64,000 nt of DNA from Planctomycetota bacterium (GTDB taxonomy: Bacteria > Planctomycetota > UBA8742 > UBA2392), in assembly GCA_027493625.1 (NCBI GenBank), contig JAOSKM010000001.1, positions 1,579,489-1,643,488 of the forward strand. The letters run 5' to 3'. Each line of letters starts with the position of its first letter. Within the stretch, counting starts at the first letter, position 1. The translations under genes were made by a program, and so were the position numbers. Below, one piece after another: positions 30,680 through 35,908 of this stretch. Under the pieces are notes generated by a model. It was not told the origin of the DNA, did not search any database, and was given only the letters and a program-made list of their open reading frames with translations.

Positions 30680-32435
30680 TTCAATTTGCCGCTCTTGCGC
30701 GACTTCTTTTTGGCGCCCGGGGTTTTCACGCGGAAACTGCCCGACTCGTCTGACTGCTTCATGGTCGGGCGCTTCATCGTGGGGCGCTTGGTGGCCTTCT
30801 TGCGCGCCGTGGTCTCCTCGGCGTCCTCGACGTCGTCGGCGCCGACCACGCGATTGCGCCCGCGGTCCTTGGCGAGATACAGGGCGGCGTCGGCGCACAT
30901 CACCAGCTCATGGGGCTCGGCGGCGTGGCGCGGGAAACAGCTGACGCCGAAGCTGGCGGTCACCCCGATCTTCTGGCCCTGGGGGCCGGTCACCACGACC
31001 TTGCGCTCGACGCCGACGCGCAGGCGCTCCGCCAGCTCCAGGGCGTGATCGTATTCGGTCTGGGGCAGGAGCAGGGCGAACTCTTCCCCGCCGTAGCGGG
31101 CGGGCAGGTCGGTGACGCGCACCAGCGCCGACAGCAGCAGCGCGGTCTGCTTCAGCACCATGTCGCCGGTCTGGTGGCCGTAGGTGTCGTTGAAGCCCTT
31201 GAAGTGGTCGATGTCGAGCATGACCAGGCTGAGCGGGTTGCCGTAGCGCACGGCGCGCTCGAGCTCGTTGCGCAGGACCTCCTGGAAGTGGCCGTGGTTG
31301 TAGAGGCGCGTGAGGCTGTCGCGCTGGGCGCGGTCCAGCACGTTCTGGAAGATCAGCCCGTTGTTGATGGCCAGCGCCGCCTGGTTGGCGAACATCTCGA
31401 GCATCATCAGGCGCTCGGGGCTGAAATCGCGCTTGCGGCTGGAGGCATCCACCACGATCACCCCGATGGCCTCGCGGTCAGCCAGCAGGGGCGCTGCGGC
31501 GAAGCGCTTGAGGGGGAAGTGCTTCGCGATTTCCGGGTGCACGCGCAGGCGCGCGTCTTCTTTCAGGGTCTCCTGGGTGACGGTCTCGCCGGTGCGCACC
31601 GCGTGGGCCAGCACGCTGAACTCGTCGGTCAGCGGCACTTTCACGCTGCGCACCACGCCGGACAGCTCTCCCCAGCGCTTGGCCAGCACGGGCTGTGTGG
31701 CCTCCAGCGATTTCTGCAGCGGCGCGTCGTGGCTGGTGAGCCCGCGCCAGATGCCCCAGGCGTCGCGCAGGCCGAGGCTGTCTACACAGACCTGGCCCAC
31801 CAGGTTCTCGCGGTCCTGGTCCACGGTGAAGATCATGGCGAGGTCGTAGCCGCCGCCTTCGTCGCTGGTGAGCGCCGTGGCGATGATGAACAGGGCCTTC
31901 TCGAGGTCCATGGTCTTGCGCAACGCGTTGCTGACCTGCTGCAGGGCCAGCAGGTCTTCGTTCTGGTGTGCCAGCCGTTGCTTCAGCAGCGCGCGCTCGG
32001 TGACGTCCAGCCCGATCAGGCTGACGCCGGCCATGTGGGCGTCGTCGTCGAGAATCGGGTCCACTACGAAATCAAAGAAGTAGTCCTGCCCGGCCTCGGG
32101 GTCGGTGATCTTCACTTCCTTCACCTCGCCCGGCACGCCCAGCGCGATGGTGCGCTGAAACACGTGCCCGGTGTTTACCTCGCTGATCACCGGCAGCACT
32201 TCATCGTAGGCGCGCCCCAGCACCTCGGAAAAGGGCTTGCGGAACAGCCGCTCGGCCGCGCGGTTGTAGCGCACCACGCGCATGTTGGTGTCGAGCACGA
32301 TGGAAACGATGGAGACCTGGTCGAAGATGCGCTTGGGCGGCGGGCCCCCATGTCCACGGTACGAGTACGGCGCTCCAGCAAACGCTGAAGCGCCGTCTGG
32401 CGTGGGCGAATGGATGTCTCGTCTTCGTCGCTCAT
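30676..32435 (-). CDS. PAS-GAF-GGDEF diguanylate cyclase, frameshifted near its 5' end
   Basis: A short N-terminal region (MSDEDETSIRPRQTALQRLL) starts at ATG 32435. Adding one G in the G5 run at 32345-32349 joins it (TRTVDMGG) to the main frame (PPPKRIFDQVSIVSIVLDTN). Then PAS (~45-160), coiled coil, GAF (~200-370) and GGDEF with DSLTRLYNHGHFQEVL and the canonical RYGGEEF site. A very basic tail (ARKKATKRPTMKRPTMK...KKSRKSGKLK) ends the ~586-residue protein and is unusual for this family. It would make cyclic di-GMP. Located 73 bases downstream of the DsbD-like gene and coupled to the TPR-like gene. Confidence 0.85.
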
Positions 32436-32508
32436 GGGTCGCAGCCGCAGGTGTACAGCATACCCGCGACGGCGACATAACCAACGGGCTGCCGTGCGCC
32501 GCGCAGGC

Positions 32509-35500
32509 TCACTTCTTCAAAGCCGCAAACTTCGCCAGCCCTTCCTTCATGAACGCAAGGAACTCTTCCTTGGTCATGTTCGGCCTGTCGGCGGGCCATT
32601 CCAGCTTTGATAGGATGTTCCCGTCGGTATCGAGCACCATGTAAACGGGGATCGACCCGCCGCCGGGGAAAAAGCGCTCGAACACCTCACGCGGTTTGAT
32701 GTTTTTCTGGTCGTCGGTGTACTGGGCGATCAACACGAAGTCATCGCGCATCGACTCGAAGATGGCCGGTTCCGGCATGATGGACCGTTCCACGGTCCGG
32801 CAGTTCTTTCAGTTGAAGCCCGTGAAGTCGATGAACACCGGTTTGTTCTTTGCCTTGGCCTCGGCCATGCCGACGTCGAAATCCTTGTGCCAGGGCAGAT
32901 CGTGGTGGTCGTAGCCCTTCTCGCCTCCCCCCACCGCCAGCTGGATTCCCCCGTCTTTCGGCGGCGGCGGCAGGATGCCCTCCAGCACGTTGCCGTACTT
33001 GGCGCCGAACAGGCCGGGGATCATGTACAGGCCGAAGCTCAGGAACAGCACCGCCAGCACGCCGCGGATCACGCCGATCTGCTTCGTTTCCTCGTGGTCG
33101 TGGGGCATGCGGAAGAAGCCGAACAGGTACAGAGAAGTCGCCACGCTGGCCGCGGCCCATACCGCGATCACCACGTAGCGGCTGATCCATTCCGCGGCCA
33201 CGATGCCCCGGAAGGCCTGTTCCGCAGCGCTGAAGTACATGATGGCCAGCCCGACCTCAATGAAGCCGAACACCACCTTCATGGCGTTCATCCAGCCGCC
33301 CGACTTCGGCATTTTCTTCATCAGGCTGGGGAACTGGCCCATGATGAAGATGGGCAGCGCCATGCCCGTGCTGAAGGCCAGCATCGCGGCAGTCGGCACC
33401 CACACGCTGCCGGTGGCGGCCTGGGCCAGGAAAGTGCCGGCTATGGGGCCGGTGCAGGAGAAGCTGATCAGCGAGAACGCTGCGCCGCTGAAGAAGGCTT
33501 TGGCGTAGCCGTGGCCTTCTTTCTGGGCCGCCATCTGCTTCCTGGTGAACCACTGGGTCATGAAGGTGGGCACGCGCAGCTCAAACAGGCCCAGGAAGCT
33601 GAGCGCAAACACCAGGAACATGATGCCCAGCAGCATGTTCACATAACCGTTCGTCGCGATGTTCTGCGCCCCGGTAGCACCCAGCGCAAGCGAAGTAATC
33701 AGGCCGAAGACCGTGAAGGTGGCCACAATGCAGGTGCAGTAGATGAACGCTGTCAGCAGCGGCGACTTGCCCTTGTCGTGCTGGCTGACGAAGAAGCCGA
33801 TGGTCAGCGGCAGCACCGGCAGCACGCAGGGCGTCAACAGCGTAATGATGCCCGCTCCGAAGGCCGCTAGCAGCAGCCAGATGAAGCCCTTTTGGGCGGG
33901 CGACTCAGCTTCGGTTGCGTTGCCCTGCGAGAGACTGGCGGTGGCTTCGGTAGTGGCGCTCGCCACGCCCTCGGGTGAAATCTCGATACTTGCCACCCAG
34001 CCGAACTTGCGGTCGAGCATGTCCGGGTTGTCCCGGTTGAACTGGGTGCAGCCCATGTCATCGCAGTATTGGCCGCTGACCACGCCGAAGGCACGCAGCA
34101 CGCCGGGCCCGGCGTCCTGAGGCACCTTGAAGCGGTGCACGACCACGACTTCGCCCATCAGGTAGTAGTTGGTTTCTTCCAGTATCTCGTCGTAATGCTC
34201 GGTCCAGGCCGGGAACTCCCAGTCGCCCATGGCGACCAGGCCATCGTGGCCCTTCAGGGTAAGCGCCAGCGGCACCGCGAACTTGCTGGGCGTCTTCGGG
34301 TGGTGCAGGTGGTAGGGTTCGCCCTTGTCATTGGTCTTGAGCTTGAAGTGCAGCTCAAGCGTCACTTCACCGCCCGGCTTGATCTTGTTCGTGCTGAACT
34401 TCGCTTCGAAGTCAAAGCCCTTCTTCACCGGGTCCGTCGGCGGGCCGTACAGCCCTTCCGGCCAGGCGTCAGCCGCCTGCGGCAGTGCGGCTTTGGTGGG
34501 CTCCTCGGCGCGTACCGGCTGCACGGCCACGGGCTCGCCCTTGAGGAAGGCCACGAACTGGTTGGCCTTTTCCTTGGCGGGCAGCGTGGCGCCGCTGCGC
34601 CGCTGTACCTTGCCTTCCGTGTCCAGCACCGCGTAGTGCGGGATGCCGGCTGCGTCGTCCGGCTTGTACTTCTCCCAAACGGCGTTCGCCTTCGCGTCGC
34701 CCACGTCGGTCACGACGCTGACGATCACGAAACCCTTGAACAGCTCTTCCACTTCGCGAAGCGTGAAGACCTCACGCTCCATTTTCCGGCAGGGCCCTCA
34801 GTAGCGGCCGTTGAAATCCACAAGCAGGGGCTTGTTCTCGGCCTTGGCCTGGGCCAGGGCGTAATCGAAGTCCACGTAGAAGCCGTGCTCGTCGGTGGCG
34901 GAACTGGGGGCCGCGGGCTCGACGGCCAGTGTGGTCTCGACCTCGCCCTTGAACTCCTGCGCATCCTCGCCGGCATACAGCTCGACCGAGTAGCGGGCCT
35001 TGAGGTTCAGCTCACCCAAGGCGTCGGCGGGCACCTCGAAGCTGCAGGTGATGGTCACGCCATCGGGGTAGACCCACTCTTCGGAATCGTCATACACGTA
35101 CCTGGTGGGCTCGGGCCAGGACTCCTCCTTGAGTGACAGGCCGGAAAGCACGGTCCACTTGATGTCCGGCGTGTTCCAGTAGCCTGGGTTGTCCTTGTGG
35201 CAGGCGAACCAGCCCCTGGGGTACGCGAACGCAAGCTTGACCGTGGCCGTGCCGCCCGCCGTGGCGGGCTCTGCGCTGAGCGTAGCGGTCAGCTTTGGCT
35301 GTTCTTTTGCCGGTGCGGGGGCGACCTCGCCGGCGACTTCAATACTGGCCGTAAACTCGGCTTCGGCCTGGAAGCAGCCGTTTTCGTCGCAGAACTGTGT
35401 GTCGTGCTTGCCGCGCAGTACCAGGGTGCCGGCGGCGTCTGCCGGAACTTCGAAGGTGTAGGCGATGTCGAAGGTGCCGCTGAGCTCCCACTCTTCGCTG

Positions 35501-35781
35501 AATTCGTCCACGTGTTTGTGGGGCTCGGGCCAGGTTTCCTTCAGCTGCTTCAGGCCTGCGAGTTCCGTCCACTTTACGTTGATGGGCCCGCTGTAACCCG
35601 GGTTGTCCTTGTGATAGGCGTGGAAGCCATCGGGCACCGTGAAGCGCAGCTTGATGGTGTATTCTTTTCCGGGCTCAGCCAGGCCTTCGACGACAGGCGC
35701 AACGGAAACCGTCAGCCCTTCCTGGGCGACCAGCGCAGGCGACAGGGCCGCAAGCAGCAGCAGACAGGCGGCAACTCGCAT
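32509..35781 (-). CDS. DsbD-like thiol:disulfide interchange protein with two selenocysteines
   Basis: One continuous frame of 1,090 residues if UGA at 34800-34798 and 32811-32809 are read as Sec. Order: signal peptide (1-20); two DsbD-N-like domains (about 21-150, Cys pair QFCDENGC at 131/136; about 150-275); thioredoxin domain 1 with DFNGRY-U-GPC, Sec at 328; a third DsbD-N-like domain (about 440-605, QYCDDMGC at 573/578); the CcdA/DsbD membrane core (about 630-905) with both redox cysteines, LLTPCVLP (652) and SFSCTGP (776); thioredoxin domain 2 with DFTGFN-U-KNC, Sec at 991, and TDD near its end. In DsbD the membrane core carries electrons from the cytoplasm to periplasmic thioredoxin folds; here both CxxC sites are UxxC. 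RBS AAGGAAGGAG precedes ATG 35781. The final stop is also UGA (32511-32509), with no CxxC context. Sec machinery is not in the window. Confidence 0.85.
32782..32811 (-). promoter_or_regulatory. Candidate bacterial SECIS element 2 with Sec UGA
   Basis: UGA is 32811-32809. Sixteen bases later a TGGAA loop (32792-32788) caps a perfect 6-bp stem GGACCG/CGGTCC (32798-32793 with 32787-32782). The second loop base is G, and the spacing sits at the lower edge of the 16-37 range. Confidence 0.65.
34757..34800 (-). promoter_or_regulatory. Candidate bacterial SECIS element 1 with Sec UGA
   Basis: UGA is 34800-34798. Twenty-six bases later begins a GGTCT apical loop (34771-34767) on a stem GCGTGA/TCACGC, extended by A-U, G-U, G-C and U-G to 10 bp (34781-34772 with 34766-34757). 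Bacterial SECIS rules as known are a loop G in the first two positions and 16-37 bases from UGA; both are met. Confidence 0.75.
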
Positions 35782-35880
35782 GGAACTCCTTCCTTAGCAT
35801 ACGTCCCGCCGCACAACAGGACGCGTTCCCTATGCTACGAGACGGCGGCCTGATTTGGGCATGATTTTCTCGCCGCCCGT

Positions 35881-35908
35881 TTGCACTGACGGGCGGCTAA
35901 ACTATCGT
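35881..35908 (+). promoter_or_regulatory. Candidate promoter for apgM, overlapping a hairpin
   Basis: TTGCAC (35881-35886), 16-base spacer, TATCGT (35903-35908), 53 bases upstream of apgM. The -35 box lies in the loop of an inverted repeat CCGCCCGT...ACGGGCGG (about 35872-35896), which could be an operator. Confidence 0.4.

Follow-up and report, generated by a model that had tools for sequence, protein, structure and literature searches.

A short hairpin in the coding region of a DsbD-type gene from a Planctomycetota bacterium (genome G000) is almost certainly a bSECIS, through which SelB would insert Sec at the in-frame UGA of codon 991, and a second, independent bSECIS would serve an earlier UGA at codon 328 of the same message. 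This reading comes from comparative sequence analysis centered on a window of 64,000 nucleotides, the whole stretch of DNA that was analyzed. A preliminary description had proposed a bSECIS-like hairpin after the second Sec UGA. That proposal is upheld by covariation of the stem, its absence in close Cys homologs, the Sec machinery of the genome, and the occurrence of the UGA throughout the phylum.

A DsbD-type gene with two in-frame UGA codons

The gene spans positions 32509–35781 on the minus strand, as do all its features below, and was delineated by translation and by matches to the Pfam families DsbD_N, DsbD_TM, and Thioredoxin_7. Its 1090 codons include in-frame TGA at codons 328 and 991, both read here as Sec. 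The terminal stop (32509–32511) is also TGA, TAA and TAG are absent from the frame, and there are 13 Cys and 21 TGG codons. The N-terminal DsbD_N (alpha) domain covers residues 37–144 (35350–35673; PF11412) and is followed by a second, weak DsbD_N-like stretch at residues 171–265 (34987–35271), which is sub-threshold at 23.9 bits versus a Pfam cut-off of 25. A third DsbD_N-like domain was suspected at residues 420–615, where Pfam gave no match. Thioredoxin_7 matches two stretches of the protein. One is an extra thioredoxin-like domain at residues 304–387 (34621–34872), which contains U328 and is also matched by PF13098. The other is the C-terminal thioredoxin-like (gamma) domain at residues 964–1051 (32629–32892), which contains U991 and is supported by an alignment to PDB 3f9u. 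Between them lies the DsbD_TM (beta) membrane domain at residues 634–849 (33235–33882; PF02683).

DsbD_N, DsbD_TM, and a thioredoxin-like C-terminal domain are found on one chain, which places the protein among the DsbDs. It scores 178.1 bits with the NCBIfam DsbD subfamily NF001419, below the cut-off of 330, and so we term it DsbD-type and leave it out of NF001419. Its four relatives in named genomes are all from Planctomycetota MAGs.

A thioredoxin-type UxxC motif begins at each internal UGA, GRY-U-GPC at the first and GFN-U-KNC at the second. The first, U328 (34798–34800), was located by translation and by homologs and sits in DFNGRY-U-GPC of the extra thioredoxin-like domain. The second, U991 (32809–32811), sits in DFTGFN-U-KNC of the gamma domain, where all 130 homologs read have either UGA or a Cys codon, and its counterpart in the alignment is the CVNC site of 3f9u, a cytochrome c biogenesis-related protein that is exported.

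In the proposed mechanism, the hairpin after UGA 991 (bSECIS 2) would make SelB deliver Sec-tRNA-Sec to that codon, giving the gamma domain U-K-N-C where C-x-x-C is usual. UGA 328, which the message carries ~2 kb further upstream, would be served by its own bSECIS. By analogy with DsbD biochemistry, thioredoxin in the cytoplasm would donate electrons that cross the membrane domain, reach U991–C994, and are handed on to the alpha domains in the periplasm and to the extra thioredoxin-like domain. A stop at UGA 991 would leave a 990-residue protein lacking the gamma domain. If one or the other UGA is decoded incompletely, shorter forms adjusted to the supply of selenium might result.

The hairpin after UGA 991

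bSECIS 2 (32782–32798) has the sequence GGACCGU-GGA-ACGGUCC, a 7-bp stem capped by a GGA triloop, and was assigned from its fold, covariation, and chance controls. The preliminary description had placed the element correctly at 32782–32811, the interval from the UGA through the end of the hairpin on the minus strand. Its 6-bp stem GGACCG/CGGUCC is present as well, but the outer U and A of its UGGAA loop also pair, which lengthens the stem to 7 bp and reduces the loop to GGA. It had further put the start of the stem 16 bases after the UGA; the stem begins 10 nt past it, and 16 is the distance to the loop in the 6-bp reading (17 nt with 7 bp).

The bSECIS model given in PMC13188914 calls for a loop of 3–9 nt, an upper stem of 4–16 bp, a G in the first two loop positions, 16–37 nt from UGA to apical loop, and a minimum free energy (MFE) of −7.5 kcal/mol or below. 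bSECIS 2 lies within every sequence limit of this model, with a 3-nt loop, 7 bp, 17 nt, and −9.9 kcal/mol for the 17-mer, a stability attained by none of 200 dinucleotide shuffles. The loop G is present whether the loop is GGA or, if the last pair opens, UGGAA, and the hairpin sits just past an in-frame UGA that is matched by Cys in alignments with homologs. The earlier remark that the spacing is at the lower limit holds under the 16–37-nt range of that source.

How readily could such a hairpin arise by chance? With both strands of the window taken together, 36 of 1,788 TGA triplets (2.0%) are followed by some hairpin of bSECIS geometry with at least 6 bp, compared with 1.7% in Markov controls, and hairpin counts over the whole window do not by themselves single out the bSECIS. 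The exact arrangement, a 7-bp stem with a 3-nt loop at 17 nt, is found after only one of the 1,788 window TGAs, which is bSECIS 2 itself, and after one of 13,709 control TGAs. When the peptide was recoded with synonymous codons 20,000 times, a bSECIS-like hairpin at least as good arose in ~0.5% of the trials, and 46 of them had a 7-bp stem at the exact place of bSECIS 2. The hairpin by itself is thus only moderately improbable, and conservation decides. An Rfam scan of 32400–35900 returned nothing relevant and one sub-threshold match.

Conservation of both sites and the Sec machinery

The gene is present in all 17 genomes of the order, with UGA at site 2 (codon 991) in 13 and UGC in four. Eight of the 13 UGA genes carry the exact hairpin of 7 bp plus GGA, in three stem versions (GGACCGU, GUCUCGU, and GAACCGU, each with its complement), and so retain it across changes in the encoded residues (Thr/Ser, Leu/Asp, and Thr/Phe). 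Because the structures obtained by MFE folding of 42 nt were mixed among the homologs, pairs were counted in a fixed register. In a set of ten UGA-coding sequences, nine from the order plus G105, which was picked for its geometry, pairing holds in 65 of 70 cells and both sides change in four of the seven pairs. The covariation score was reached by none of 500 shuffles, and slid registers pair at no more than 50%. The covariation check proposed in the preliminary description is thereby answered by compensatory stem changes in Sec-coding relatives. In the four Cys-coding genes of the order, 17 of 28 cells pair, there is no continuous stem, and two of the seven positions are never paired. The remaining five UGA genes (G001, G012, and G014–G016) lack the bSECIS 2 hairpin and have other hairpins downstream; the most stable ones in G014–G016 lack a G at either of the first two positions of the loop.

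The four Cys-type genes of the order (L029, L030, L032, and L035, from G004, G005, G003, and G006) form one clade, although Sec-type genes also occur in the two genera from which their genomes come. A single such clade across two genera points to either gene transfer or old paralogs.

UGA 328 is followed after 17 nt by its own hairpin, bSECIS 1 (34758–34780), which folds into a 9-bp stem, GGAGCGUGA/UCACGCUUC, with a GGUCU loop. It is nearly identical in the six UGA homologs, with eight of nine pairs invariant, so that these six show conservation only and no covariation. Site 1 (codon 328) could be read in 13 genomes of the order, six with UGA and seven with Cys; it was not found by pattern in G002, G012, G013, and G001, the last represented by a short contig only. 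Written as site 1/site 2 with U for Sec and C for Cys, the combinations are U/U in G000, G008, G014, G015, and G016, U/C in G004, C/U in G007, G009, G010, and G011, and C/C in G003, G005, and G006. Another family of the phylum has a DsbD (L084, from G304) with two UGAs at UxxC sites, ES-U-MAC and FS-U-LNC.

Beyond the order, 158 of 392 Planctomycetota genomes have a match at E ≤ 1e-40, at least 93 of them with UGA at site 2. We read 130 genes, 129 from these matches plus that of G018. Site 2 is UGA in 93, UGC or UGU in 37, and nothing else, in a sample enriched for UGA because it takes in every UGA-bearing match listed but only part of the others, which biases the UGA share upward. The best bSECIS-like hairpin reaches −5 kcal/mol or below in 54 of the 93 UGA genes versus 7 of the 37 Cys genes (Fisher 7e-5), and the other 39 UGA genes have no hairpin at that threshold under a rule that admits perfect stems only. 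When peptide and codon use are controlled, the excess weakens: p < 0.05 is obtained in 20 of 93 UGA genes and in 3 of the 37 with Cys (Fisher 0.08), though the whole distributions differ at 0.001 (Mann-Whitney). The tree requires only six U/C changes across the related sequences, and hence there are few independent events. SelA is found in 89 of the 93 UGA genomes, the four without it being MAGs with a completeness of 67–91%; across the phylum sample the figure is 245 of 392. SelA also occurs in 30 of the 37 Cys genomes.

The G000 genome contains SelB, a tRNA-Sec with a UCA anticodon, SelA adjoining the tRNA-Sec, and SelD. Its selB (L001 ~1110, contig C2) shifts frame at about codon 494, leaving the winged-helix end (SelB-wing_3) in another frame. 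The selB of the close relative G008 is a single open frame of 639 codons that includes the winged-helix end, and the shift in G000 is probably a sequencing or assembly error. The selD gene (L017, C1:2059742–2060665) itself has an in-frame UGA, followed 20 nt on by GGACCUG-GGA-CAGGUCC. This near-identical hairpin suggests a preferred form of SECIS in this bacterium. Elsewhere in the genome, a short thioredoxin-like match with two TGAs inside (C1:629125–629463) is perhaps another selenoprotein.

The most skeptical explanation is that the gene is broken, with translation really ending at UGA 991 and the hairpin produced by codon choice through chance alone. The chance rates above (~0.5% of synonymous recodings, 2% of window TGAs) leave some room for it, and at least one further frame of this MAG, that of selB, is shifted. 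Against it, UGA recurs at one codon in 93 of the 130 homologs, with Cys in all others, and the stem changes are compensatory. Between G000 and G008, dN is 0.051 and dS 0.459 after U991, similar to the 0.034 and 0.36 between the two UGAs, indicating that purifying selection continues beyond UGA 991. In pairs more distant than G008, pN/pS past U991 is high (0.35–0.76) and near saturation, so that the dN/dS of distant pairs says little. We consider a broken gene very improbable.

Decoding of UGA as another residue, as Trp or by near-cognate suppression and without Sec, is less probable still. It would keep the frame open, but nothing specific speaks for it: the gene itself stops at TGA and uses 21 TGG codons, the aligned residue is Cys and never Trp, and the tRNA-Sec with its UCA anticodon is present. 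A different possibility is that UGA 991 does encode Sec but is served by another downstream structure, the bSECIS 2 stem reflecting something else. Five of the 13 UGA relatives have different hairpins, and when 42 nt downstream are folded, the window sequence adopts an alternative fold of −11.6 kcal/mol, about as stable as the hairpin (−11.4 kcal/mol in a 37-nt fold). Yet the covariation is specific to the bSECIS 2 register, and a nearly identical hairpin follows the UGA of selD in this genome, which makes this option, too, very unlikely. We retain bSECIS 2 as the very probable signal for Sec at UGA 991.

Significance and relation to known systems

Bacterial messages with two Sec sites are uncommon, though examples are known. 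The preliminary description had called two SECIS elements in one message uncommon, in agreement with the 2026 inventory of 119 selenoprotein families, which assigns most families one Sec and calls those with two or three ‘a small subset’ (PMC13188914). A DsbD with two UxxC motifs is absent from the family section of that inventory (PMC13188914). No cut-off of a Sec-DsbD model in NCBIfam was reached by the window's protein or by eight related Sec-coding stretches. By title, start of abstract, or term counts, in a search with most subscription papers outside its scope, no Sec-containing DsbD was found in the literature. Selenoproteins of Porphyra-associated Planctomycetes have been published, and some Sec-DsbD members may already be listed there (PMC4807772).

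On balance, we favor the view that Sec in the DsbD gamma domain is a widespread Planctomycetota trait missing from the 2026 inventory, and that a second thioredoxin-like domain with Sec, equipped with a bSECIS of its own, occurs in some lineages. On this view each site changes between Sec and Cys irrespective of the other, since U/U, U/C, C/U, and C/C all exist. The data point to a widespread Sec-containing DsbD in the phylum and a two-Sec form in a few lineages. With these four natural versions of one protein, the cost and benefit of each Sec become directly comparable, as does the handling of two SECIS per message.

Cys-type DsbD (NF001419) shares DsbD_N, DsbD_TM, and a C-terminal thioredoxin-like domain with the window's protein, which differs in having two UxxC motifs and an extra thioredoxin-like domain after the DsbD_N-like stretches. 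TsoB (NF045694), a rhodanese/DsbD fusion-like selenoprotein listed in the inventory with UxxxxU (PMC13188914), is likewise a two-Sec protein with a DsbD membrane domain. It is rhodanese-like, however, whereas the window's protein has two distant UxxC motifs and scores 181.5 bits with the TsoB model, below the cut-off of 805. Also listed in the inventory is a ‘thiol:disulfide interchange protein’ (PF13098, UxxC, one Sec; PMC13188914). It resembles our protein in its thioredoxin-like UxxC and in PF13098, which also falls on the U328 domain, but has one Sec and PF13098 only, a distinction drawn from its listing rather than its sequence.

As for the hairpin, the bSECIS of Escherichia coli fdhF is likewise a coding-region element close behind its UGA, with a small G-rich loop. 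The layouts are close, UGA plus 11 nt plus a 17-nt hairpin in fdhF and UGA plus 10 nt plus a 17-nt hairpin in bSECIS 2. The stem sequences differ, the fdhF stem being interrupted and its loop larger, whereas bSECIS 2 has 7 uninterrupted base pairs and a GGA triloop. The selD element of the same genome has this same architecture of 7 bp and a GGA triloop (GGACCUG-GGA-CAGGUCC versus GGACCGU-GGA-ACGGUCC), differing in that its stem starts 20 nt from the UGA rather than 10.
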